DNA of 64,000 nucleotides, from NCBI RefSeq assembly GCF_023223645.1, contig NZ_JALKBY010000008.1, positions 1-64,000 on the forward strand. Direction: 5' to 3'. Under the pieces are notes generated by a model that was given only the letters and a program-made list of their open reading frames with translations, did not search any database and was not told the DNA's origin. The position numbers and the translations under genes are program-made. Below, piece by piece: positions 14,189 through 46,002 of the stretch; positions within the stretch are counted from its first letter, which is position 1, and every line of letters begins with the position of its first letter. The stretch comes from Natroniella sulfidigena (GTDB taxonomy: Bacteria > Bacillota > Halanaerobiia > Halobacteroidales > Halobacteroidaceae).

Positions 14189-14444
14189 CCCCCTTTATAA
14201 AGAAAAAAAGCTTCTTGACTGAACAGTCAAGAAGCTTTTCCTAAGTAACTAGGCATAGATAGCCTATATTATCTTCAAACTTCCAACCGTCTCAGTCCTA
14301 ACTAGGATCTAAGCGAAAAAGTTTCATATTTAATTATTACGAAAACCTGTGATCTAGTTTAACTAGATCACAGGTTAAAATTTAAATTTTCTAAGGTAAT
14401 CATCACTCATTAAGCATTATACCACATCAGCTTAAATATCTCAA
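14189..14444 (-). promoter_or_regulatory. Pantothenate operon promoter and attenuator leader
   Basis: The 307-nt gap between fhs and panG carries a strong minus-strand promoter: TTGAGA (14439-14444), 17 bp, TATAAT (14416-14421) with an extended TG. The transcript begins near 14409. Its leader holds a long hairpin (14344-14376), a central region with inverted CCTAG/TAGG motifs (about 14238-14325), then a very stable 15-bp hairpin with a 4-base loop (14206-14239) and a T run at 14202-14209. The last is a textbook terminator, about 10 nt before the GGGGGAG ribosome site of panG. This is the layout of a riboswitch or attenuator. The known pan RNA motif of Firmicutes is the first candidate, but I cannot confirm its consensus by eye. 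Confidence 0.7.
14344..14376 (-). repeat. Long perfect hairpin in the pan leader
   Basis: A near-perfect inverted repeat of about 14 to 16 bp (aacctgtgatctag and ctagatcacaggtt) lies between the pan promoter and the terminator. It may also end read-through transcripts from fhs, although the tail TTTTCG is a poor T tract. Confidence 0.6.
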
Positions 14445-29279: not shown

Positions 29280-30557
29280 TTATTTTGAGACTGTTACAGA
29301 AACACCATCAGGAATAACAGTAATCCTAGCTTCAGAATCATCAAGTATCTTTTCTGCCATCTCTAATGCTTCATTTAAATCCGCAGCCCAGTGCATAGAC
29401 ATATCTTCAACCATCTCTCGAGGTGCATCAGTTACCATAATCACTTCAAATTGCAATAACAATCTAGCTAACACCTGAGACTCCCATTGATCTGGAATAG
29501 TATCCTTACGATCTCTAGCTTCTATTTCATCCATCACTTGTTGGACAGAATCTGCTTCAGCAAAAGTCTTATAAAAGGCTTCTCCACCATGACCATCAGA
29601 GCATTCAGCAGCAATAATAATTACGCCACCCTCTTTACAGGTAGCTTCACCTGCAGTCATCCCCTTAACTGATTGATAAATATTTTGATCTAGAGGATAA
29701 CCCCCATTAGTCGTAATTACTATCTCAGCAGGTTTAGCTTTGGCCCCAGACAGCTCTGCTACAAATTGGCACCCTTCTGCATGAGCTTCCTCACGATGGC
29801 CCGCAAAAGCATTGATTACTTCCTTATCTTCATTAATTACTACATTAAGAATAAACTCAAGATTAGCCTGTTCAGCTGCATATAGCATATCTCTATGCAG
29901 TGGATTACCATCTAAAATACCGGTTCGAGCTTTATTATGTCCAATAAACTCCGAACAATGATTAGCCAAAACTGTCATCTTACTTGCTACTCCTGGCAAA
30001 ACACTCTTTCTACCGCCAGAAAAGCCAGCAAAGAAATGTGGTTCAATAAAACCCTCAGCAATCAATAAATCCGCATCTACAGCCAATTTATTTAGGATTA
30101 AATCTCCACCAGAAGGTAAAGTTCCTAAATGAACCATACTATCTTGATCTCGGCTATCATGATTGATTATTGTTTCATTGTCCACAATATCATCTCCATA
30201 CTTATGACGCAACTCCTCTTCAGTAGATGCTCGATGAAAACCGGTTGCTATTAAGATAGTAATCTCTGCTTCAGGATTACCTGCCCTGATTTCATCTAAA
30301 ATAATCGGCATCGTTACATGGCTAGGTACAGGTCGAGTATGATCACTAGAAATTACAACTATATTATCTTTTCCAACTGCTAACTCTCTTAATTGAGGAC
30401 TATTAATTGGATTTTTCAAAGCTTCCTTGACCAATTCTTCTTCACAAAGATCTGCAACATAATCATGAGCTTGTGAAACAAGAACCCCTTCCAACCTTTC
30501 TTCTGGAAGCTCAAGACTTAACTTCTTTTCTCCATAAGGTAATTTAATTTCAGGCAT
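29280..30557 (-). CDS. larA: Lactate racemase (nickel-pincer enzyme) LarA
   Basis: A 425-residue enzyme that interconverts D- and L-lactate with a nickel-pincer nucleotide cofactor. Visible signature regions are VISSDHTRPVPSH (about residue 69), ATGFHRAS (about 104), GFIEPHFFAGFSGGRKSVLPG (about 170-190) with the Lys that carries the cofactor, and ANHCSEFIGHNKA (about 199). The cofactor genes larB, larC and larE are not in the window. It is the last gene of the lactate cluster and lets the organism use both isomers with one dehydrogenase. Confidence 0.9.
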   Translation of the reverse strand: MPEIKLPYGEKKLSLELPEERLEGVLVSQAHDYVADLCEEELVKEALKNPINSPQLRELAVGKDNIVVISSDHTRPVPSHVTMPIILDEIRAGNPEAEITILIATGFHRASTEEELRHKYGDDIVDNETIINHDSRDQDSMVHLGTLPSGGDLILNKLAVDADLLIAEGFIEPHFFAGFSGGRKSVLPGVASKMTVLANHCSEFIGHNKARTGILDGNPLHRDMLYAAEQANLEFILNVVINEDKEVINAFAGHREEAHAEGCQFVAELSGAKAKPAEIVITTNGGYPLDQNIYQSVKGMTAGEATCKEGGVIIIAAECSDGHGGEAFYKTFAEADSVQQVMDEIEARDRKDTIPDQWESQVLARLLLQFEVIMVTDAPREMVEDMSMHWAADLNEALEMAEKILDDSEARITVIPDGVSVTVSK

Positions 30558-30598
30558 TAATTCTCCTCCCTCTATAAATCAAATAAATGTTATTAAAT

Positions 30599-31990
30599 CT
30601 AAACAGTCTTTCCTGGGTTTAAGATGTTATTAGGATCGAATGTATCTTTGATTCCACGCATCAGCTTAACTTGAGCCTCTCCAACATCTTGATGCAAATA
30701 TTCCTTCTTAGCAGAAGCAATACCATGCTCACCAGAAACTAACCCTCTTAACTCTCTTGCTTTAGCATACATATCATCCATTACTGCTTTATTCTTTTCT
30801 TGCCAAGTCTCTTCATCAAGATCTTCTTTCATTGTGTAAATGTGAAGGTTACCATCACCTGCATGACCAAATCCACGGATCTTAAGACCATGCTTTTCTT
30901 CTAAAGCATCAGTATACTTTACAAATTCTGCAATCTTATTACGAGGCACAACAACATCACATTCATCTAAGTGGCTGACTGCTTTTAACGCCTCAAGCAA
31001 CGCTCCTCGAGTATCCCAAATTATACTCTGACGTTCATCAGTATTAGCAATATAGACATCATGAGCATCATTATCTAAACAAACTTCAGCAGCAGCTTCA
31101 TACTTCTTCTCTAACTCATCTTTGTCATTGCCATAAAAAACAAGTAATAGATAAGCATCCGCTGATGTATCAGGAAACTCCTTCCCTAAATATTCAGTAG
31201 CTGCTAATAAGACATCACGCTGCATATATTCAATACCTGTCGGTACTAATTTAGCATTAATAATTTCTGGTACCGTACCGATTGCCTGTTCTAAACTATC
31301 AAAAGGAACTAACAAAGTAAGTTGTTTTTTCGGTAATGGAAGTAACTTTAAAGTAATCTCAGTTACAATTCCTAATGTACCTTCTGAACCAATCATTAAT
31401 TCTTGGATACTATAACCTGAACTATTTTTAACTAATTTCCCACCAGTTTCAATTACCTCTCCAGTAGGAAGAACTATCTTCATCCCTTGTACATAATCTC
31501 TAGTTACCCCATACTTAACAGCTCTCATCCCACCAGCATTAGTCATTACATTACCACCTAAAGTAGCACTCTTTTCACCAGGATCTGGGGGATACAAAAA
31601 TCCTAAATTACTTACTGTTTCAGCAAAATTCATCAAAATAACACCTGGTTGTACTTTAGCCATTAAATTTTCCTCATCAATCTCAATAATTTGATCCATA
31701 GCAGTAGTTAATAATAAAATACCACCTTCCATTGCCACTGCACCACCACAAAGCCCTGTTCCAGTACCACGAGGAGTTACTGGAATATTTCTTTCGTTAG
31801 CAAATTTCATAATTTCTGAGACTTCTGCTGTAGTTTCAGGTTCAACCATCACTTCAGGATAAACCTTAAGCTCTGCTAATTCATCATGAGAATAATCTTC
31901 ACTAATTTGATCACCTACATAAACACGATCATCATCTAAGATTCCTTTTAAACGCTGGATATCAATTTCAGTAACTTTATTATAACTCAT
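30599..31990 (-). CDS. lctD: FAD-linked lactate dehydrogenase (GlcD-type)
   Basis: A 463-residue flavoprotein of the FAD_binding_4/GlcD family. The FAD-binding PCMH domain covers about residues 35-215 (VTPRGTGTGLCGGAVAMEGGILL; PPDPGEKSATLGGNVMTNAGGMRAVKYG) and the C-terminal FAD-linked oxidase domain carries GFGHAGDGNLHIY and GEHGIASAKKEYL. It oxidises lactate to pyruvate and hands electrons to the EtfAB proteins encoded next to it, an arrangement known from Acetobacterium woodii. The start at 31990 is set by AAGGAGGA 7 nt upstream. Confidence 0.92.
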   Translation of the reverse strand: MSYNKVTEIDIQRLKGILDDDRVYVGDQISEDYSHDELAELKVYPEVMVEPETTAEVSEIMKFANERNIPVTPRGTGTGLCGGAVAMEGGILLLTTAMDQIIEIDEENLMAKVQPGVILMNFAETVSNLGFLYPPDPGEKSATLGGNVMTNAGGMRAVKYGVTRDYVQGMKIVLPTGEVIETGGKLVKNSSGYSIQELMIGSEGTLGIVTEITLKLLPLPKKQLTLLVPFDSLEQAIGTVPEIINAKLVPTGIEYMQRDVLLAATEYLGKEFPDTSADAYLLLVFYGNDKDELEKKYEAAAEVCLDNDAHDVYIANTDERQSIIWDTRGALLEALKAVSHLDECDVVVPRNKIAEFVKYTDALEEKHGLKIRGFGHAGDGNLHIYTMKEDLDEETWQEKNKAVMDDMYAKARELRGLVSGEHGIASAKKEYLHQDVGEAQVKLMRGIKDTFDPNNILNPGKTV

Positions 31991-32007
31991 TAATTTTTCC
32001 TCCTTCA

Positions 32008-33225
32008 CTATTTGGCAGCTGCAACCTGCTCTTTAAAGATCTCTTCTCCATTCTTTATCTTTTCAATTAATTGTGGCACTACTTCATAAAGATCTCCTAC
32101 AATTCCATAATGGGCTACATCAAAGATATTTGCTTCTGGATCATTATTAATCGCAAAAATATTTTCAGAGTTCTGCATTCCAGCTACAAACTGTACAGCT
32201 CCTGAAATACCTAATGTAATTATTAATTCAGGTCGTACTGACCTACCACTAAGACCAATTTGTTGTTGATGATCAGTCCAACCTTTCTCGATTAATGGTC
32301 GAGTAGTTCCTATCTTACCACCTAATAAATCAGCAAGTTCTCGAGCCATTTCTAAATCTTTCTCTTCTCTAAGTCCACGACCAACAGCTACAATTATATT
32401 AGCATCTTCAATACTCTCTACTTCTGGCTTTTTAGTAATATCAATAATATTAGCTCTCGTTTTTAATTTTTCTTCTGCTACACTAAATTCTACAACTTCA
32501 CCAGTTGGATCTTCAACTCTCTTTGCTGGCTCCATGACTTTATAACGCATAGTAGCCATCTGTGGTCGATTCCTAGTAGTTAAAATTGTAGCCATAATAT
32601 TACCACCAAAAGCAGGTCGAGTCTGTACTAAATCAGTATTCTCTCTAACATCTAGCACAGTACAGTCAGCCGTTAGACCTGTTCTAAATCTAGTAGCCAC
32701 ACGTGGAGCAAGGGATCGACCAATCGAAGTAGCTCCCACTAGTATAATAGCAGGCTGAGTTCTATTAACACAGTCCTCAATTGCCGTTGCATACAATTCA
32801 ACATTGAAGTGATGTAATTCTTCTTGATCATAGACATATACCTTGTCAGCACCATGAGCAATAATTTCATCAGTTTGGTCTGTAATATTATGACCAAGTA
32901 AGACTACATGTAATTCTTGATCTATTTTATTAGCTAGCTCTCTTCCTTTCCCCATCAATTCATAAGTTACAGGATGAATTTCTCCCTCTAACTGCTCAGC
33001 AAAGACTAATACATCTTGCCACTCATCCTTATTAACCACTTCTCTTTCATCCTTGATTGGTTCAATAACACCTTTTTGACATTCATCAACGCAAATTCCA
33101 CATGCTTTACAAGCGGCATTCATCTCAACCTTCTCATCTACTATCTCTATTGCATCAAAAGGACAAGCATCCATACACTTTCCACATAAATTACAATTCA
33201 CATAATCTATACTGTAATTACTCAT
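32008..33225 (-). CDS. etfA: Electron transfer flavoprotein alpha with ferredoxin domain
   Basis: A 405-residue protein. Residues 1-60 are a ferredoxin domain with two Cys sets (CNLCGKCMDACP and CKACGICVDECQKG), fused to a standard EtfA (about 65-400) with the FAD-binding C-terminal motif GRGLREEKDLEMARELADLLGG and LIITLGISGAVQFVAGMQNSE. This fusion is typical of the EtfA that works with lactate dehydrogenase in electron confurcation. It overlaps etfB by 4 nt (ATGA type). Confidence 0.95.
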   Translation of the reverse strand: MSNYSIDYVNCNLCGKCMDACPFDAIEIVDEKVEMNAACKACGICVDECQKGVIEPIKDEREVVNKDEWQDVLVFAEQLEGEIHPVTYELMGKGRELANKIDQELHVVLLGHNITDQTDEIIAHGADKVYVYDQEELHHFNVELYATAIEDCVNRTQPAIILVGATSIGRSLAPRVATRFRTGLTADCTVLDVRENTDLVQTRPAFGGNIMATILTTRNRPQMATMRYKVMEPAKRVEDPTGEVVEFSVAEEKLKTRANIIDITKKPEVESIEDANIIVAVGRGLREEKDLEMARELADLLGGKIGTTRPLIEKGWTDHQQQIGLSGRSVRPELIITLGISGAVQFVAGMQNSENIFAINNDPEANIFDVAHYGIVGDLYEVVPQLIEKIKNGEEIFKEQVAAAK

Positions 33226-34016
33226 ATGATTTTCAACTCCTTTAACTCATTATACATTTTATCAGCTAATTCTTCTCCACTACCATCCCACACAACTTGC
33301 TCAATATCATCTTCTGGTGGGAAAACCCTCTCTACCTGTGTTGGAGATCCTTTTAAACCAAAGTTAGTCTCATCATCATCTGCTAAATCATCAAAAGTAA
33401 GCGTCTTAATCTCTTTATCCTCAGTCTCTAACTTAAGCTTATAGGAAGGTAATCTCGGCTGACTTACATGCTTAGTTACAGTTATTAAACCAGGATAACT
33501 AAACTCCACTACCTCAATTGTATCCCCCATATCCTTCTCTACAACTATCTTCTCCACAGTAGATTCTTCTATGGAGCTTACATAAGCTACATGAGGAATC
33601 CCTAATGTCTCTGCGATAGACGGGCCAACCTGAGCAGTATCTCCATCAGTACTCTCCATTCCACAAATAATTAAATCATAACCATTCTTTAAACCTATTA
33701 CCTCAAGCCCTTGAGCTAATGTATAACTAGTAGCTAAAACATCAGCACCAGCAAATTTAATGTCAGATAAAATATATCCCTTATCAGCTCCCATCATATA
33801 TGCTTCTCTAATAACTTCCTTAGCTTGAGGAGGCCCCATTGTAATAACTGTCACTGTACCTCCATGCTCTTCTTTTAATTGTAAGGCAGTTTCAAGAGCA
33901 TATAGATCATAAGGATTCATAATAGAATCAACACCATCACGAATCAAATTACCATTTTCATCAACTTCTACATTTTTAGTATCAGGAACTTGCTTGATAC
34001 ATACTAAAATTTCCAA
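33222..34016 (-). CDS. etfB: Electron transfer flavoprotein beta subunit
   Basis: A 264-residue subunit of the ETF that binds the second flavin and contacts NAD(H) in bifurcating forms. It shows ILVCIKQVPDT at the start, SIMNPYDLYALE, AYMMGADKGYILSD and the signature ICGMESTDGDTAQVGPSIAE. I choose the TTG at 34016, 6 nt after GAGGTG, because it gives the typical N-terminus; a GTG three codons earlier lies in the ribosome site. It is the first gene of the etfB-etfA-lctD-larA unit. Confidence 0.95.
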   Translation of the reverse strand: MEILVCIKQVPDTKNVEVDENGNLIRDGVDSIMNPYDLYALETALQLKEEHGGTVTVITMGPPQAKEVIREAYMMGADKGYILSDIKFAGADVLATSYTLAQGLEVIGLKNGYDLIICGMESTDGDTAQVGPSIAETLGIPHVAYVSSIEESTVEKIVVEKDMGDTIEVVEFSYPGLITVTKHVSQPRLPSYKLKLETEDKEIKTLTFDDLADDDETNFGLKGSPTQVERVFPPEDDIEQVVWDGSGEELADKMYNELKELKII

Positions 34017-34149
34017 TTTAGTCACCTCTTCTTTAAAATTTTATTAATTTAGTCTTACTAAACAAACTCAACTTATCTATATATTAGATCTACCTCTTAA
34101 TAAAACAGACTGAGAAGCTCTATTTTATATCCCACCTCCCTTATTAGGA

Positions 34150-34210
34150 TATGGTCAGGTGGTCTGACCATATTCTTGCTAAGCACCTGACTCTATCTAG
34201 AGCCAGGTGT
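34150..34210 (-). promoter_or_regulatory. Operator and dyad ahead of etfB
   Basis: TGGTCTGACCA (34160-34170) lies inside a larger dyad, TATGGTCAG (34150-34158) with CTGACCATA (34164-34172), upstream of etfB. The core matches the FadR-type GntR site TNGTNNNACNA and is identical to three sites upstream of the permease gene. A hairpin with one mismatch (34183-34210) stands between it and the permease stop. It has no good T tract, so part of the transcription may read through from the permease. Confidence 0.7.
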
Positions 34211-34224
34211 TATAACTATTTGGA

Positions 34225-35898
34225 CTAGAACAATCCTGGAACAAATACTGAAACAGATAATGCTCCAATAATACCAACTACTAGAGCATAAACAAAAGCT
34301 GGTACTAAATTGGTTCTAATTACCTTCCCTTCTTGACCTAATACACCTACAGTTGTACAAGCAGCTACAACATTATGAACACAGATCATATTTCCTGCCG
34401 CTCCACCAACAACCTGTAAACCAAGAATTACAATTCTTGATACTCCAACACTATCAGCAACTCCATACTGAAAACCAGAAAACAAAATATTAGAAACAGT
34501 ATTACTACCTGACATAAATGCTCCAAGAAGACCAATGAATGGAGCAAAAATTGGCCAAACCCCTTGGAACATATTAGCAGCAGCAGTTGACATAGCATCC
34601 ATCATACTTCCAACCTCTAAAATCGTTACTTCACCTGAGTTAAGCATTACTTGTACCATTCCTACAGCAAATACTAAAGCAATTGTAGCAGGAATTATCT
34701 GCTTTAATGAATCAACCCAAGTCTTCTTAGCTACATCCCCATCCATCTGATGCATAAAAATTGTCAAGAAAGCAACCAACATAAATGGAATTGTTCCTGG
34801 TAAATATAAATAATCAAAAGAATAACTTAAATTTGTTCCAAGTATCCCTTCCCAACTAACTGAAAAACTGGTTAAAAATGATTGTAATGGGCCAACAACT
34901 CTAGTAGCCACCAAGATAATTGAAACTAAAAGATAAGGCATCCAAGCATTTAATGGGCTAATAGTAAGCTCTTCATCTTCTCCGCCGCCTGGTTTTAAAT
35001 CACCAATCCAATCACTATCCCAGTCTGACTGTTCAGCAAAATCCCAAGTCTCTTCAGGAACTAAAAAACCAGCTTTAGTAGCAGGAACTACAATTGCAAG
35101 AGAAATTAATCCAGCACCCAATGCAGGTAATTCTGGGCCAACAAAAGCAGCAATTGCTACATAAGGAACTGAAAAAGCAAGTCCCGCAAAGATAGCAAAA
35201 GGTGCCACTTCAAAGGCTGGCTTAAATGAGCGCTCTGGCCCAAACAATTTAGTCAAGACCATTACAATTATCAAAGGAATAGCTAGTCCCATAATTGCAT
35301 GAGGCAAAGCCGACCAAAGACCTACTTGATCTAAAAACTCACTTTGTGTAAATCCAGCAGCTTCTACTTGAGCTAAAATATCACCACTTAATATTGAAGA
35401 TACCCCACCAAAAATTGGTGTTCCTACAGCACCAAAACTAACCGAAACACTATCACCAATCAAAGCAACCATAGCAGCTGCTAAAGGTGGAAACCCAAGC
35501 CCTACTAACAAAGGCCCTGCTAATGCAGCAGGTGTACCAAAACCAGCAGCTCCTTCTATAAATGACACAAATAAGTACGCAATAATTACTGCTTGAATTC
35601 TTCTGTCAGGGCTAATATCAGTAAATGTCTTATTAATTGTCTTAATTGCCCCACTATTTTTTAATGTATTCATCAGTACTATTGCACCAAACACAATTAC
35701 CAAAATATTAAATGCACTCAACCCACCAAAGATAGTAGCTCCAGCCAACCATTGACCTGGCATCCCCCAATAGCCACCAGCAATCACAATAGCCACTAAC
35801 CATGCTAAAGGCATCACTTTCTGAGCAGGCCAATCATAAAATACCATTAGTATAATTGTCAACAAAATTGGTAAAGCAGCTAATATAGCTACAAACAT
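34225..35898 (-). CDS. lctP: L-lactate permease
   Basis: A 557-residue polytopic membrane protein of the LctP family with about 13 or more hydrophobic spans. Characteristic stretches are [57 protein letters not shown] and the C-terminal [23 protein letters not shown]. It imports lactate with protons. It has its own ribosome site (GGAGGAG) and an upstream region with three GntR operators. Confidence 0.94.
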
Positions 35899-36031
35899 AA
35901 CTAACTCCTCCTTTTGTTTTTTTATTATTCAGTCAATTAACAGCCTTTAAATTCCACAATGTAACTAAGTAAAATATAATCCAGACTAATAATTATTATT
36001 TTTTAATATCTCCTCCTCCCAAGAGGACAGA

Positions 36032-36163
36032 TGGTCTGACCACAACTTCAAAATAAAATTTTTGTTATTTGACTTTCCTGATGGACATATGGTCTGACCA
36101 CTACCCTAAAAATCAGATTTTCTTCTATTATATAATTATTCTGATGAACATATGGTCTGACCA
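36032..36163 (-). promoter_or_regulatory. Three GntR operators upstream of the lactate permease
   Basis: The palindrome TGGTCTGACCA occurs at 36032-36042, 36090-36100 and 36153-36163, spaced 58 and 63 bp. Longer flanks are shared by the copies (GAACATATGGTCTGACCACAA and relatives). It fits the FadR-family half-sites with GT and AC three bases apart, and the adjacent gene codes for such a regulator. The most distal copy ends 12 bp before the end of that gene. A TATAAT-like -10 is at about 36129-36134. Confidence 0.75.
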
Positions 36164-36175
36164 CAAATTCAAAAT

Positions 36176-36874
36176 TTATATGTCCATCAAATCTTGTGAC
36201 CAGTTTAAATGTTCTACCATAGCTTCTTTAGCCAAATCTTTATCTCCAAGCTTAATTGCTTGATAAATCTTATCATGCTGACGGATAAAAGCTTCATTCT
36301 TATTTTCATCCTTTACTATTCTCTCCATTGCATTAGCTAAATATAGATCGATAACTCCAGAAATAGAGTTTAAAAACTTATAGATCAATTTATTACCAGT
36401 CGTTTTAGCTAAGGCATAATGAAAGCCTCGATCAGCTCGTCGGCTATCAACTGCATCTCCTCTACTATCTTTCATTAAATCTACATGCTTTTTAATTTGA
36501 TTTAAACTTTCTTGATCAGCTCGCCATGCTGCTAGCTCAACACTACTAGTCTCAATCATTTTTCTTAATTCGATTAAATCTCCATTAACATCCTCTTCAA
36601 CCATAAATAATAACGATAATGGTTTCAAGAAATTGTCATCTGTATTTTCTTTGATAAAAGTTCCTTCTCCATGTCTACTTTCAATCAACCCTATAATCTC
36701 CAAGGCACTAAAAGCTTCTCGTAATGATGAACGACTAACATTCAATTCTGCAGTTAATGTTCGCTCAGAAGGTAATTTATCACCTTTTTTCAATTGACCT
36801 TGATAGATCATTTGCTTAATTTGATCAATAATCTGCTGATAAACTTTCTTGTCTTGAACTGGATTAAATTCCAT
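36176..36874 (-). CDS. GntR-family (FadR subgroup) regulator of lactate genes
   Basis: A 232-residue DNA-binding protein. The winged helix-turn-helix is at about residues 10-75 (GDKLPSERTLTAELNVSRSSLREAFSALEIIGLIESRHGEGTFI) and the all-helical FCD ligand domain at about 95-220, with His residues (FHYALAKTTGN) that often hold a metal and a small acid such as lactate. It matches the place of LctA in Acetobacterium and LldR elsewhere. Operators of the right type stand before the permease and etfB genes, so it probably controls both, with lactate as inducer. Confidence 0.88.
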   Translation of the reverse strand: MEFNPVQDKKVYQQIIDQIKQMIYQGQLKKGDKLPSERTLTAELNVSRSSLREAFSALEIIGLIESRHGEGTFIKENTDDNFLKPLSLLFMVEEDVNGDLIELRKMIETSSVELAAWRADQESLNQIKKHVDLMKDSRGDAVDSRRADRGFHYALAKTTGNKLIYKFLNSISGVIDLYLANAMERIVKDENKNEAFIRQHDKIYQAIKLGDKDLAKEAMVEHLNWSQDLMDI

Positions 36875-40064: not shown

Positions 40065-41291
40065 TTAAAAACTAAAGTTTCCACTACCATCAATTCTGAT
40101 TGCATTATCTAAATACAAGGCATTCTCATAACCCAACTCTTCAAAGACCTTTTCTGCTGCCCCCTGTGCTCTTACTCCACCAGCACAATGAAAAAGTACT
40201 ACTTCATCCTTATCAGCTGGTAGTTGACTAGCAATAGCCTCTGGGTCTGATAGGATATCTCCCTGTGGAATATGAATAGCTCCTGGAATCATTCCTGAGG
40301 CCACTTCATCATCATCTCGTACATCAATTACCGTTGCCCCTGCCTCAAGTTCTTCTTGGAATTGAACAGGAGTTATCCCTAAATCAGGTCTACCATCTGT
40401 AACATCAAAATCACCACCGCTAGATTCAAGACCAAACATTGGTAATCCTGCCTCTTTCCAAACCGGTACTCCACCAGCAAAGACCTTCACATCAGTATAA
40501 CCACTGTTTGCCAAAAACTTGGCAATTTGATGACTATGTCCTCATTGAAAACCTCCACAATAGACTATGATCTCTATGTCCTTATCTCTAGGCATAGCAC
40601 CTTTATACTTCTCTTTAAAAATATCTACATCCATTGAAACCGAATTAGGAATATGCTCATTAAAATAAGAATTATAAGGTCTGGAGTCAATTATCATGTA
40701 TGGTTTCCTTGCAGGATCACTTACTGCATCATCACCAATCAAGGTTTCTAAATGTTCAGCTGTAGTTGTAAAGTAATTCCCAGCTTCCCGCCAAGCAGGA
40801 GTGCCCTCCTGATAAACATATACATTTTGATAACCCATCTCCATTGCTTTTCTAGCTGAGTTAGCACTTAAAGGACAGTGAAGCCCACCACAATAAAAAA
40901 TCAGCTTCTTTTCCTTATCATCAGGTAATAAATGAGCTGACTCTTCAAACTGACCATCAGGAATATTAATGGCACCATTAATATGTCCTTCATCATATCT
41001 ACCCTCTGGACGAGAATCGACCACTACAAACCCCCACTCAGGCATATACTCATCATATGACTCTCGCATTGTACTAGTAGGGCTTACATGGCTCATCAAC
41101 CTCATTAAGGTTTCAGTATTAATATAATTAAGCTCAGGATCTTTAGGCACTATATCTTCTTCTGTATCATCTTCAACTATAAACCTTGATAAATCCTCAG
41201 CATCATAGGATTCTACAGGAAACGCAGCTATAGTACTTAATACTAAGAAAGAGATCAAAACAACACCTAAAAATGAAAACCTCTTCTTCAT
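40065..41291 (-). CDS. Three-domain rhodanese with in-frame TGA, probable selenoprotein
   Basis: Read through the TGA at 40542-40544, this is one 408-residue exported protein with an N-terminal signal (about residues 5-24) and three rhodanese domains (about 55-172, 195-288, 300-408). Domain 1 has the loop YCGGLHCPLS (Cys134, Cys139). Domain 2 has YCGGFQ, then TGA, then GHS, so the codon (residue 250) aligns with Cys139 and its catalytic Cys is 245. Domain 3 has FHCAGG (Cys369). Both halves are in the same frame and domain 2 is complete only when the TGA is decoded. A hairpin suited to a bacterial SECIS lies just downstream. Rhodaneses move sulfur (or selenium) from thiosulfate or polysulfide through a Cys persulfide. 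It is last in the operon with the molybdoenzyme. The alternative is a nonsense mutation, giving a 249-residue and a 149-residue fragment. Confidence 0.78.
40508..40544 (-). promoter_or_regulatory. SECIS-like hairpin behind the in-frame TGA
   Basis: After the TGA (40542-40544), TTGCCAA (40525-40519) and TTGGCAA (40514-40508) form a perfect 7-bp stem capped by the 4-base loop GTTT. The loop G is 24 nt from the TGA. Bacterial SECIS elements are hairpins within the coding region, with a small apical loop containing a G, roughly 16 to 37 nt behind the UGA. A weaker outer pairing (ACATAGT with ACTGATGT) may extend it. Confidence 0.7.
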
Positions 41292-41307: not shown

Positions 41308-41928
41308 TTAACTTTTTATAATTAATTTCGTCTGCTCAATACAACTTATTAGAGATTCAGTTATACTTATAAATAAGGGTAATGCTTCGATTTCAATCAA
41401 CCTTTCCTTGAAATCTGTCAACCAATCAAAATGATCATCTAAAAATTGCTTAACCTCATCAGTTTGACAATGTTCTATTGTATATACTAATAGTTCTAAT
41501 AAAATGGTTAAATGATCAGGCATCTGTTTATATTCCTCTGGTATTTCTAAACCCAAGCCTTCAATTAAGTGTTTAATATGCAAAGCTGAATCCCCCATCA
41601 GATAACCTTTTTCATTAGCAATATTGATCTGTGCTTGCTCATCAGTAGTCCATACTTTATAGATTGATTCTACTGGTAAAGCACTAGGTTGATCCATGCC
41701 GATAAAGCATCTAAGATATTCCTGTTTAAACTGATGAAAATCAGGGATATCAGCTTGTTGAGTAAGACAATCTGTTTTAACCTCAATTTTTTCCATTCTT
41801 TCTCTCAACTCATCAAGTAATTCATCTGAAATAAGTGCATCATAAAATTTCTGATCTGGATACTTGTAAAATTCGGCTATTGTTAAGAATATTTCTGGCA
41901 ATACTTCATTTTGAATAGTCAACAACAT
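41308..41928 (-). CDS. TorD/DmsD-family chaperone for the molybdoenzyme
   Basis: A 206-residue all-helical cytoplasmic protein of the TorD family. Visible features are the LYKYPDQKFYDAL-like opening (AEFYKYPDQKFYDALI, about 18-33), the conserved E-x3-Y-x3 region PVESIYKVWTTDEQ (about 84-97) and MPDHLTILLELLVY (about 137). Such chaperones bind the Tat signal of a specific molybdopterin oxidoreductase and hold it until the cofactor is inserted. Its gene lies right behind the catalytic and Fe-S subunit genes. Confidence 0.85.
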   Translation of the reverse strand: MLLTIQNEVLPEIFLTIAEFYKYPDQKFYDALISDELLDELRERMEKIEVKTDCLTQQADIPDFHQFKQEYLRCFIGMDQPSALPVESIYKVWTTDEQAQINIANEKGYLMGDSALHIKHLIEGLGLEIPEEYKQMPDHLTILLELLVYTIEHCQTDEVKQFLDDHFDWLTDFKERLIEIEALPLFISITESLISCIEQTKLIIKS

Positions 41929-41943
41929 TATTAATCACCCTTC

Positions 41944-42501
41944 CTATTTACCACTAAGTTCCAACTTGTTTCCAACATAGTAAATACTAGGTTTAGTCCC
42001 TTCCCTTGTAAGCAGCTGATATACATCCTTTTCTTTCATTAATTTAGTAATTTTGCTAGTAGGATCATCTAAATCTCCAAAAACTCGTACATCATTCATA
42101 CAAGTACTAACACATGTCTCTCCTTGGCTTATAAAGCCAGCACAAAACTTACATTTGCCAGGAACTCCTGTTTCCTGATCAATTACTCTAGCATCATAAG
42201 GACAGACATAGAAACAAGCCTTACATTGAATACAGTTATCTGAATCAACATTTATAATTCCACCATGACCCTTATTAGTAGCTCCAGTAGGACAAACATT
42301 CAGGCAAGGTGCCTCCTCACAGTGCTGACACTGAACAGGAAGAATCTCCATCTTAGCATTAGGGTATTTCCCACTTTCTTTAAATTCTACTCTGTTATAA
42401 TACATTTTAGGTGCTAACTGCCACTGCATCTGACAAGCCATTCTACAAGCACCACAACCTGTACAACGATCAGGATCAATTAACATTGCATAATTTGCCA
42501 T
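41944..42501 (-). CDS. Four-cluster Fe-S subunit (PsrB/DmsB/NrfC type)
   Basis: A 185-residue electron-transfer protein with four Cys groups typical of four [4Fe-4S] clusters: CTGCGACRMAC (Cys13-23), CQHCEEAPCLNVCP (about 60), CIQCKACFYVCP (about 92) and CKFCAGFISQGETCVSTC (about 113). It has no signal of its own, so it is expected to travel with the Tat-exported catalytic subunit. Its start is adjacent to the stop of the catalytic subunit gene. Confidence 0.93.
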   Translation of the reverse strand: MANYAMLIDPDRCTGCGACRMACQMQWQLAPKMYYNRVEFKESGKYPNAKMEILPVQCQHCEEAPCLNVCPTGATNKGHGGIINVDSDNCIQCKACFYVCPYDARVIDQETGVPGKCKFCAGFISQGETCVSTCMNDVRVFGDLDDPTSKITKLMKEKDVYQLLTREGTKPSIYYVGNKLELSGK

Positions 42502-44706
42502 TTACTTGCCCTCCTTCCTGACTCGTACTATCACTTCTTGCCCCATTGTACTTCCAGCGATAGGTTCTACCATAGCAGGCAAGAAGTCATTCCAGTTAAT
42601 CCCTACACCGTATGCAGTTTCAGCCTTCTTTGAAAACCCACCATAAGCAGAAGGAACCCATACACAATCAGGGTGTAATAATTCAGTCGCTTTCACTTCT
42701 ACTTCTTTTTTAGCAATTTCTGATTCTACTGTAACTGTATCACCAGTCTTAATACCCAATTTATCTGCCCGTTCTTTATTAATCCACATTCGTGTAGCAT
42801 CATATTGCTCACTAATAGCCATCAAATAAGGATTATTACTGGTAATGTGATGAGAATGCCATGGTTGTTTTCCATGAATTAATCTAAACTCATCTTGCCT
42901 TTTTGGTTCGACCTTAGGGGGAATCCATCTTGGCACTCCACTAAATCCATTTACCTTATAAAGCCCTACAGAAAATTCAACCTTTCCTGAAGGAGTATTT
43001 AAAGCAGGCTCTCCACCCTCTAAAGGAAACTTAGGATCAATACCCTGATTACGGAATTCAATACATCCTGCTTCTTTAAGGTGTTCTAGCGTAACTCCTA
43101 AAGGTTCAATCATAGCTTTGGCCCAATCATCAACAGTAAAATCAAAGTACTCTTCTGCTCCAATCTCTTTTGCAATCCCTTTCATAATATCAAGTAGTGG
43201 TTTAGTATCCTCCATTGGTTCTACAACTTCAGTTCTCATAGCAATCTGTGGATAGTCATGAGTAATATGACCACTTGTCTGGACTGGAAGTTCAGCCCTT
43301 TCCATAAAGTAACACTCAGGTAGTATATAATCAGCCGTATACAATGATGTTTCATTCCAGTCTATAGGCATTGAAACAACAAGATCGGCATCTTTAATCT
43401 TCTTTTGATATTCTGGATCAGGACAAGTACGTAGAGGATTGTAATGGTAAATAAATAATGCTTTTATCTTTCCTTCCTCTACTAACTGAGGAACTCGCTG
43501 AGGGATACCCCTTACTGCTTCAACTGTAGCATAAGGGCCTTCTTCTCCAGCCCCATCTACTCGAGGGCCTTTTTCTTTCTCAGGTGGTCTTTTAGTCTCA
43601 AATTGCCCAAACTCAACACTAGCTGATGGGAGCAATCCACCGCGTTGATACATATTACCTAATAGAGCATTAATAATAACATTCATCTGTGCCTGCTGAA
43701 CACTATTTTGATAGTGAGCATTTAAGCCATGATAGCCTGTTTCTAGAAAAGCTTTTGGTGCATGTTTAGCTAAATCTCTAGCAATCTCTCTTATCTTATC
43801 TGCTGGCACATCAGTTATCTCTTCTGCCCATTCTGGAGTACAATTCCTATTAGCATTCCAAAATTCCTCAAAGTTCTCTACATATTCTCTTGTAAACTTT
43901 CTGTCCTTTAAATCCTCTGTAACAAGAACATGAGCTATTGCTAAGAAGAATGCTAAATCAGTTCCTGGTTTAATCGGTATCCACTCATCAGCTACCTTTG
44001 CTAGCTCACAACATCGTGGATCTACTACAACTAACTTAGCCCCTCTTTCCCTTGTAGCCTTAAGCACCTTTCTCATTCCATTTGGAATAATCCCTCCAGC
44101 AAAATTTCTCCCTACAAAGAGCATATAATCACTATTCTCATGATCGCCAAAGAGATTTGTAGCCATCATTCTACTCCATACGTTTGTCTTAGAACTAAAA
44201 CAGGTAGCATAGTGAGTAATGTAGTTAGGAGAACCAATATAATCTAAGAAGATATCAGCATAATTCTTTCCTCTTACTCCATGCTCCAGCCAAGTTACTG
44301 AATTAGCTGAATGTTCATCTATAATCCCTGTTAATTTCTCTCCAATTTCACTAAAGGCCTGCTCCCAAGAAATAGGTTCAAACTCTTGTTCTCCTACTCT
44401 TTTCATCGGTCGAGTAACTCGATCTGGATTATAGATATCTGCTACCATTCCATGCCCTCTAGCACAAATCTTACCTTTATTTTTTAAATGAATTGGATTA
44501 CCTTCTGCTTTTACTACACGACCATTCTTAACATAAACAAATAACCCACACATATTAGAACATCCATTACACAAAGTATGTCTTTTTTCAACTTCAGCAT
44601 TAGCAGCTGCTTTGCTATACTCATTAAAACTAAATTTAAGCGAAGTACTAGCAACACCAGTTGCTGCTGCAGTCTTCAAAAAATTACGTCGCGTCATTTT
44701 TACCAT
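42502..44706 (-). CDS. Tat-exported molybdopterin oxidoreductase (PsrA/PhsA/ArrA-like)
   Basis: A 734-residue catalytic subunit of the DMSO reductase superfamily. The twin-arginine signal TRRNFLKTAAATG is at residues 5-17. A [4Fe-4S] site follows (Cys46, 49, 53, 81: CNGCSNMCG and KICARG). The segment THYATCFSSKTNVW (Cys169) offers a Cys as molybdenum ligand, as in polysulfide, thiosulfate, arsenate and Srd-type selenate reductases. The C-terminal domain includes HGKQPWHSHH and YDATRMWINKERADKLGI. Substrate is not determined; rhodanese partners point to sulfur or selenium compounds. No NrfD-type membrane subunit is encoded here. The start at 44706 is chosen because AAAGGAGCA precedes it. Confidence 0.88.
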   Translation of the reverse strand: MVKMTRRNFLKTAAATGVASTSLKFSFNEYSKAAANAEVEKRHTLCNGCSNMCGLFVYVKNGRVVKAEGNPIHLKNKGKICARGHGMVADIYNPDRVTRPMKRVGEQEFEPISWEQAFSEIGEKLTGIIDEHSANSVTWLEHGVRGKNYADIFLDYIGSPNYITHYATCFSSKTNVWSRMMATNLFGDHENSDYMLFVGRNFAGGIIPNGMRKVLKATRERGAKLVVVDPRCCELAKVADEWIPIKPGTDLAFFLAIAHVLVTEDLKDRKFTREYVENFEEFWNANRNCTPEWAEEITDVPADKIREIARDLAKHAPKAFLETGYHGLNAHYQNSVQQAQMNVIINALLGNMYQRGGLLPSASVEFGQFETKRPPEKEKGPRVDGAGEEGPYATVEAVRGIPQRVPQLVEEGKIKALFIYHYNPLRTCPDPEYQKKIKDADLVVSMPIDWNETSLYTADYILPECYFMERAELPVQTSGHITHDYPQIAMRTEVVEPMEDTKPLLDIMKGIAKEIGAEEYFDFTVDDWAKAMIEPLGVTLEHLKEAGCIEFRNQGIDPKFPLEGGEPALNTPSGKVEFSVGLYKVNGFSGVPRWIPPKVEPKRQDEFRLIHGKQPWHSHHITSNNPYLMAISEQYDATRMWINKERADKLGIKTGDTVTVESEIAKKEVEVKATELLHPDCVWVPSAYGGFSKKAETAYGVGINWNDFLPAMVEPIAGSTMGQEVIVRVRKEGK

Positions 44707-44785
44707 CTCTATATCTGCTCCTTTCATTAATAAAGTCAAGAACTATAACAAATTTTTTGTCCCATCCTGGGACTTAATTTTAGCT

Positions 44786-45856
44786 TCAGCCACCATCTCC
44801 CTCTTCTACATCAATCCTAGTTATAACTGTTGGATAATCTACAACCTCCCTACAAACAACTGGTTGGTCACCGATTACTTCTTCATTGGATGTCCAAGCA
44901 CTCATGCCAAAAGTCGAAGCCATAGCCTCATAACCTAACACATTTAAAATCCTTGCTGCTTGGCTAGCTTCGTAACCATGTGAACTGATAAGCACAATTT
45001 CTTTATCTGTAGGCAATTTAGCTAAATTCTCTGGATCAGTAATAGTTTTTAAAGGAATATTTATTGCTCCTTCAATAAATCCTTTTTGATATAATTTAGA
45101 AGTTCTTAAATCAACTAAGAAATAATCATCGCTTTCTTCTTTTACGATAGATTTAACATCACTATATCCTATTACCGGTCTTAATGAATCCTCAATGATT
45201 TGCTGCCCTTGAGCAATTATCAACTCTTTTAAAGTATCAACTTCATAATCAATCTCTGGCAATTCAAATTCTTCTGTTGCTTCTGTAGGCTCTGTTGCCA
45301 ATTCATAATCAGCAGGATCACAGTCTAAAGATCCTCCCCAGCCTCCAAAGCCATTTTCCATAGCCACTGTATCAAAGCCTAACATACCCCAAAAAGCAGC
45401 AGTTTGGCTAGCAGTATGCCCTGAATAACAGACCACAATAATCTTTTTATCCTGTGGCAACTTATCAATTTGATGCTCTTCACTAATAGTTTCGTACGGT
45501 ATATTGACAGAACCAATAATACTAGCATCAGTAAAGTCATCAGCTCCCCGAATATCTACCACATAATAGTCAGGATCTGGATATAATACAACATTTTCAT
45601 ATACTTCTCTTGGAGTAATAACTTCCTGATAATCATTTTGCAAATAATCATCTGCAACTTCTATTAATGCTTCAAACTGCTCTCCTTCCAGCTGCTTTTC
45701 TAATGGATCAACAACTACTTCTTCAACCTCTTCTTCAACAACATCATCTGTAATTGTTGGCTCCGATTGATCATTACAAGCCACTAAACTTAATATAATT
45801 ATGAGACTAAAAATTAAAAGTATTGATTTTTTTCTAAACAATAACTTTCTAAACAT
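44786..45856 (-). CDS. Lipoprotein with two rhodanese domains, one lacking its Cys
   Basis: A 356-residue exported lipoprotein: signal with lipobox LSLVAC (Cys27), an acidic linker, then two rhodanese domains. Domain 1 (about 80-180) has the active Cys143 in VVCYSGHTAS. Domain 2 (about 225-330) has SSHGYEAS at the same place, with Ser for Cys, so it is probably not catalytic. The start at 45856 is set by AAGGAGG 11 nt upstream. It is the first gene of the molybdoenzyme operon and would place sulfurtransferase activity on the outer face of the membrane with the enzyme. Confidence 0.85.
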   Translation of the reverse strand: MFRKLLFRKKSILLIFSLIIILSLVACNDQSEPTITDDVVEEEVEEVVVDPLEKQLEGEQFEALIEVADDYLQNDYQEVITPREVYENVVLYPDPDYYVVDIRGADDFTDASIIGSVNIPYETISEEHQIDKLPQDKKIIVVCYSGHTASQTAAFWGMLGFDTVAMENGFGGWGGSLDCDPADYELATEPTEATEEFELPEIDYEVDTLKELIIAQGQQIIEDSLRPVIGYSDVKSIVKEESDDYFLVDLRTSKLYQKGFIEGAINIPLKTITDPENLAKLPTDKEIVLISSHGYEASQAARILNVLGYEAMASTFGMSAWTSNEEVIGDQPVVCREVVDYPTVITRIDVEEGDGG

Positions 45857-46002
45857 TACATTTATAACCTCCTTAATTCTATTTTGATAAAACCAAATCA
45901 ACTATACCCTTCCTTTCACACCCCCTTTGTAAAGTTATTTCTCTTGCCTTAGCTAAAAATACTTAATTCAACTTTTAGAGGTAATTATCACATTCACTAA
46001 CT

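Follow-up and report, generated by a model that had tools for sequence, protein, structure and literature searches.

The window, i.e., the whole 64,000-nucleotide stretch of Natroniella sulfidigena DNA that was analyzed, carries on its minus strand a set of genes specifying two rhodaneses, a molybdoenzyme with its electron-transfer subunit, and a chaperone. The features of this region are as follows, in the direction of reading.

44786..45901, minus strand: two-domain rhodanese, probable lipoprotein (LVAC); PF00581 in two stretches
42502..44739, minus strand: PsrA/PhsA/SrrA-type Mo-bisPGD oxidoreductase with a twin-arginine-like N-terminal region (TRRNFLK); assigned from 2vpw and the PhsA model
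41944..42501, minus strand: 4Fe-4S electron-transfer subunit (SrrB/PsrB-like); PF13247 and related Fer4 models
41308..41928, minus strand: TorD-type chaperone (SrrD-like); PF02613, E 2e-17, with the TorD model below its cutoff
40065..41291, minus strand: predicted selenoprotein gene; its product, 408 aa if the TGA is translated as selenocysteine (Sec), has a signal peptide and then three rhodanese domains; read-through frame, PF00581, homologues conserved on both sides of the TGA
40875..40892, minus strand: loop Cys134-x4-Cys139 of domain 1, counterpart by alignment of Cys245-x4-Sec250
40557..40559, minus strand: codon of Cys245, catalytic loop of rhodanese domain 2; invariant in an 11-row alignment
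40542..40544, minus strand: TGA, predicted Sec250, at +5 from catalytic Cys245; codon shared by 7 genomes, the remaining homologues having Cys
40508..40525, minus strand: SECIS-like hairpin UUGCCAA-GUUU-UUGGCAA, 17 to 34 nt after the TGA; in 7/7 domain-2 TGA genes
40185..40187, minus strand: codon of Cys369, loop HCAGGVRA of rhodanese domain 3, by alignment

Elsewhere in the window, inspection by eye of positions 29280 to 36874 (minus strand) identified genes for a LarA-like protein, an FAD-linked dehydrogenase of the lactate/glycolate oxidase type, a ferredoxin-EtfA fusion, EtfB, a lactate permease, and a GntR regulator, a combination resembling that of an electron-confurcating lactate dehydrogenase. 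A pan motif RNA is located at 14283 to 14372 (minus strand; Rfam RF01749, 37.4 bits versus a gathering threshold of 36.2).

The frame extending from the ATG at 41291 to the TAA ending at 40065 is interrupted solely by the TGA at 40542 to 40544, where plain ORF calling splits it into products of 249 and 149 aa. Pfam model PF00581 matches the read-through protein in three rhodanese stretches (E 8e-52), confirming the proposal of the earlier note that a single rhodanese frame is divided by this codon. Domains 1, 2, and 3 have the active loops YCGGLHCPLS, YCGGFQ-U-GHS, and HCAGGVRA, respectively. As that note had also stated, Cys245 is retained and the TGA aligns with Cys139 of domain 1; its description of Sec at the end of the active loop was loosely worded, the exact position being +5 relative to the loop's catalytic Cys. 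An AlphaFold model of the whole protein, built from three sequences, gave a mean pLDDT of 62 and a pTM of 0.35, values too low for structural use.

Decoding of the TGA as Sec at residue 250 is, on comparative sequence evidence, predicted with very high confidence. Homologues were sought in 61 relatives and then in overlapping sets of approximately 300 and approximately 400 genomes from the same phylum, together with genome contigs. The same column holds TGA in Fuchsiella alkaliacetigena (75% identity) and in five more distant genomes, namely, G034, G036, and G044 (42 to 45%) and G142 and G207 (53%), while Cys occupies it in G104, G139, G173, G431, and a Desulfuromonadaceae metagenome-assembled genome (MAG), so that the closest homologue set comprises 7 TGA genes, including that of the window, versus 5 Cys genes. 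The pairing of TGA with Cys which the earlier note had proposed to seek is thus present. For the window gene and its Fuchsiella counterpart, dN/dS was 0.185/1.12 before the TGA and 0.134/0.89 after it, and other gene pairs gave similarly low ratios; as dN/dS is low (approximately 0.15) beyond the TGA, like before it, the 3′ segment behaves as translated sequence.

A candidate SECIS element, in the form of a perfect stem of 7 to 8 bp spanning +17 to +34, follows the codon in all seven domain-2 TGA genes, and its 4-nt loops (GUUU, GGUU, GUUG, or GGUC) all start with G. Three distinct sequences have A-U as the closing pair and three have G-C, representing one compensatory double change whose 3′ side (UUG to CUG) is synonymous, and the remaining six of the seven stem pairs do not vary among these genes. 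Compared with synonymous reshuffles, the hairpin region gave weak minimum-energy z-scores (−0.7 to −2.9), so a test of the stem at its fixed position and a contrast between Sec and Cys genes were chosen instead. The probability of the stem under synonymous reshuffling was 0.04 to 0.14 per gene, which is modest singly, but the hairpin recurs across lineages whose dS is close to or exceeds 1. In the Desulfuromonadia, where Sec lies in domain 1 (see below), 10 of the 10 genes examined had a hairpin that begins at +15 or +16 and has a loop of GGUC, GUC, or CGUGA, and none was found at the corresponding place in Cys genes L097, L125, and L126. Across both domain types, the hairpin occurs in 17/17 Sec genes versus 1/7 Cys genes (2/7 under a looser rule which admits the shifted hairpin of L018), these genes not all being independent. 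The one exception, the gene of G139 (L060), is Cys coded and still has a hairpin of 8 bp where the SECIS element would lie, around its domain-2 Cys codon, possibly as a relic of a Sec ancestor.

The assembly to which the window belongs (G000; 2.6 Mb, 98.7% complete) harbors, within a 7.5-kb stretch (G000:C28, approximately 130 to 136 kb), selA, selB, a tRNA-Sec gene, a yedF-like gene, and selD, the tRNA-Sec (selC) scoring 67 bits and displaying the anticodon loop CUUCAAA. All four of selA, selB, selC, and selD, whose absence the earlier note had regarded as fatal to its proposal of a probable selenoprotein, are present in this one cluster, and that proposal is supported by this machinery, the TGA/Cys pairing, and the SECIS-like hairpin. 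selB exceeded its cutoff in every TGA-carrying genome and likewise in the Cys carriers G104, G139, and G173, in which the Cys forms are, therefore, not explained by missing machinery. The selD frame of the window's genome is itself broken by an in-frame TGA (QTSGUAAK; G000:C28, approximately 135011 to 135013; L066:6012-6014). Many known SelD proteins contain Sec, and that of this genome is probably a selenoprotein as well; the gene at 40065 to 41291 is, therefore, probably not the sole selenoprotein gene of the genome.

Alternative readings of the TGA fare poorly against these data. A true stop, yielding a 249-aa protein followed by a pseudogene or a separate gene, would agree with the 249- and 149-aa products of mechanical ORF calling, but it is highly improbable, as it would fall inside an active-site loop, no conserved start codon follows the TGA among the homologues compared, 7 genomes share the TGA and show purifying selection both before and after it, Cys stands in the same column elsewhere, and selA to selD are present. 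The probability that TGA is read as Trp or Cys through suppression or a changed genetic code is negligible: nothing was found in support of such read-through, TGA terminates 8 of the 40 ORFs of at least 200 codons within the window and is thus otherwise an ordinary stop, homologues carry Cys at this site with Trp never occurring in the TGA column of a 38-row alignment, and a dedicated tRNA-Sec is encoded. Sequencing error, named in the earlier note as a possible refutation, is ruled out by the identical TGA column in 7 genomes; the Sec proposal withstood every computational refutation listed in that note.

The same 38-row alignment defined the position of Sec among three-rhodanese proteins. 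In most members, the two N-terminal domains are C-x4-C rhodaneses, and Sec replaces only the second Cys of this loop, in one domain per protein; the first, catalytic Cys was never replaced by Sec in this alignment. Sec is located in domain 2 in a Halanaerobiia/Bacillota-type clade (100/100 support) and in domain 1 in the Desulfuromonadia, whose Sec proteins (L098 [G533], L111 [G530], L115, L117, L118, and L120 to L124) display the motifs UPFT, UALS, UPFS, and UGMS with a hairpin after each TGA; L097, a close sister of these genes, encodes Cys and is without the hairpin. The domain-1 loop is lost in G034, G036, and G044, with Sec in the remaining domain 2, and the domain-2 loop is lost in L117, L118, and L120 to L124, with Sec in the remaining domain 1. 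That only the second Cys is replaced, and never the catalytic one, points to a resolving or exchanging Sec rather than to a primary persulfide carrier.

In three relatives representing three genera of one family (G034, G036, and G044), a second in-frame TGA immediately follows the signal peptide and aligns with the lipobox Cys of related proteins.

L030:1570-1572 (G044): second TGA
L031:1447-1449 (G036): second TGA
L032:1432-1434 (G034): second TGA

It is present in all three genes found in this family, in the contexts AFG-U, AYG-U, and AFG-U. According to the codon alignment, the column is TGC or TGT in G142, G207, G104, G139, G173, and L018, encoding a lipobox Cys (e.g., VSGC or LAGC) which is likewise found in most other relatives; the window gene and that of Fuchsiella have neither Cys nor TGA there. 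A candidate stem (GGRGCC/GGCUCC with a 16-nt loop) lies 3′ of the second TGA, but its energies were no better than those of synonymous shuffles, and decoding of this codon is, therefore, likely but less secure. Phe or Tyr at −2 is unusual for a lipobox, and the residues A and G at −3 and −1 suit signal peptidase I. It would seem rather probable that the mature exported protein of G044, G036, and G034 starts with Sec, either free following cleavage by signal peptidase I (AFG|U) or Se-lipidated. A literature search, judged by titles and abstracts, retrieved no report of N-terminal Sec, free or lipidated, at a lipobox position.

The 408-aa product is very probably exported and part of the molybdoenzyme operon, and the link to a molybdoenzyme drawn in the earlier note holds, with the genes for the catalytic subunit (A), the electron-transfer subunit (B), and TorD upstream of the selenoprotein gene. 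Among proteins of solved structure, the molybdoenzyme is closest to the Thermus "thiosulfate reductase" (2vpw; E 1e-95), and its score against the PhsA thiosulfate reductase model (NF012032) was 433 bits, below the membership cutoff of 694. Since PsrA, PhsA, and SrrA form one lineage (PMC7331816), the substrate is not readable from sequence. Counterparts of the two-domain rhodanese head the operon in Fuchsiella, G142, and G104. The window operon comprises rhodanese, A, B, TorD, and three-domain rhodanese genes, with no gene for an NrfD-type membrane anchor (SrrC) between those for B and TorD, while G142 and G104 display the order rhodanese-A-B-NrfD-TorD-three-domain rhodanese (the NrfD model match being confirmed for G142); G139 has the same order, NrfD included, but with a short first gene. 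The respiratory selenite reductase (srr) operon of Bacillus selenitireducens (Wells 2019) is described as encoding SrrA (80 kDa), SrrB (17 kDa), SrrC (43 kDa; anchor), SrrD (24 kDa; chaperone), SrrE (38 kDa), and SrrF (45 kDa), rhodanese-domain proteins being included (summarized in PMC12481199). Measured against that description, the window operon contains an srr-type set, with a PsrA/PhsA/SrrA-type A subunit, B, TorD, and two rhodanese genes (products of approximately 38 to 41 and 45 kDa), NrfD also being encoded in G142, G104, and G139; it differs in its lack of an NrfD gene and in the presence of Sec in its 45-kDa rhodanese. The designation "SrrF-like" and the connection to srr are based on this close match in gene content and sizes.

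Rhodanese selenoproteins have been cataloged previously: a 2026 review of the prokaryotic selenoproteome distinguishes five forms, including UxxS and the UxxxxU form TsoB (PMC13188914). Form 1, UxxS, is exemplified in that review by WP_010941598.1 of G. sulfurreducens and credited to Zhang and Gladyshev (2005). The window protein shares with form 1 both PF00581 and the U-x-x-S motif (UGHS), and the Desulfuromonadia three-rhodanese homologues with UALS, UPFS, and UGMS also fit UxxS; compared by motif, the UxxS form is probably a domain-1 member of the same three-domain group. The Sec of those homologues is in domain 1, whereas that of the window gene is in domain 2, beside an srr-like molybdoenzyme operon. 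The earlier note's term "new-type" must accordingly be narrowed, as rhodanese selenoproteins are cataloged and domain-1 Sec occupies the identical loop position in the Desulfuromonadia; it stands for the domain-2 site and the srr-like lineage. Other known families were tried and rejected. TsoB (NF045694) shares the x4 spacing of C-x4-U, and its rhodanese domain is matched (E 3e-35), but it possesses two Sec residues and a DsbD-like part (rhodanese/DsbD fusion-like), and the window protein scored 121 bits against its cutoff of 805. The LYCAU rhodanese-related (seleno)protein (NF041203, CxU) is likewise a rhodanese, but it has a single domain with Sec two residues after Cys, and the score was 80 bits against a cutoff of 115. 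ExtH, the rhodanese of the Geobacter selenite/tellurite ext cluster (NF040901; PMC5877670), is similarly an exported rhodanese tied to selenite reduction; its model did not match the window protein at E 0.1 and weakly matched 2/6 A1 members (best E, 0.0025). What looks new, therefore, is the location of Sec in domain 2 in a lineage with srr-like operon gene content, its invariable substitution for the second of the two Cys residues in a C-x4-C loop, with a single domain of each protein affected, and the second TGA in the lipobox-Cys column of three relatives.

It is proposed that SelB with Sec-tRNA, guided by the hairpin 17 to 34 nt after the TGA, would place Sec at position 250 of an exported rhodanese with three domains, encoded in a PsrA/PhsA/SrrA-type operon that resembles srr in gene content. 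Outside the cytoplasmic membrane, Cys245 would form a persulfide or perselenide with sulfane sulfur or selenium derived from polysulfide or from the Se(0) or selenodisulfide products of selenite reduction. Sec250 would serve as a fast resolving nucleophile which releases or reduces the bound chalcogen via a Cys245-S/Se-Sec250 bridge, and the carrier would feed or clear the reductase in the way that Sud serves polysulfide reductase. Sud of Wolinella succinogenes is a periplasmic rhodanese that hands polysulfide sulfur to Psr; it has a single domain and Cys only, as opposed to the three-domain Sec protein described here. A function as chalcogen carrier for the molybdoenzyme of the operon is likely. 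The resolution of Cys245 by Sec250, suggested by analogy, is considered reasonably probable, as is the mechanism as a whole when the choice of cargo is set aside.

The nature of the cargo is more finely balanced, with selenium slightly favored over sulfur as the main one. Within the PsrA/PhsA/SrrA lineage, the involvement of selenite or another Se species appears moderately probable, that of sulfur compounds alone being a possible but lesser prospect. The specific scenario in which the same selenoprotein serves only polysulfide, sulfur, or thiosulfate respiration in a Sud-like manner, its likeness to srr reflecting shared PsrA/PhsA/SrrA ancestry, is judged unlikely: the Thermus Psr-type enzyme as best solved relative, PhsA as best family model (though below its cutoff), and the single lineage of the three enzymes (PMC7331816) speak for it, but the two accompanying rhodaneses match srrE and srrF in size, and a full A-B-C-D set is present in G142, G104, and G139. 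It is rather doubtful that Sec250, instead of resolving Cys245, forms a selenenylsulfide redox switch that protects the carrier or acts as an electron-accepting partner of the reductase in a relay with Cys134/Cys139. Such a role is consistent with the pairing of C-x4-C/U loops across two domains of the same protein; domain 1 of G034, G036, and G044, however, is without its pair while Sec is retained, and a cross-domain relay is, therefore, not general.

Should the proposed carrier with a resolving Sec be correct, rhodaneses that carry sulfur or selenium outside the cytoplasm and are associated with a respiratory molybdoenzyme would have employed Sec repeatedly, always at a single chemically defined site, that of the second Cys in the C-x4-C loop, and the resolving role of Sec in chalcogen transfer would be directly testable with natural Sec/Cys pairs. 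Standard ORF calling cuts such genes at the TGA, as it does the window gene. An N-terminal Sec at the lipobox position, if true, would put Sec to a new use and serve as a test of whether selenium is accepted in the processing of lipoproteins.
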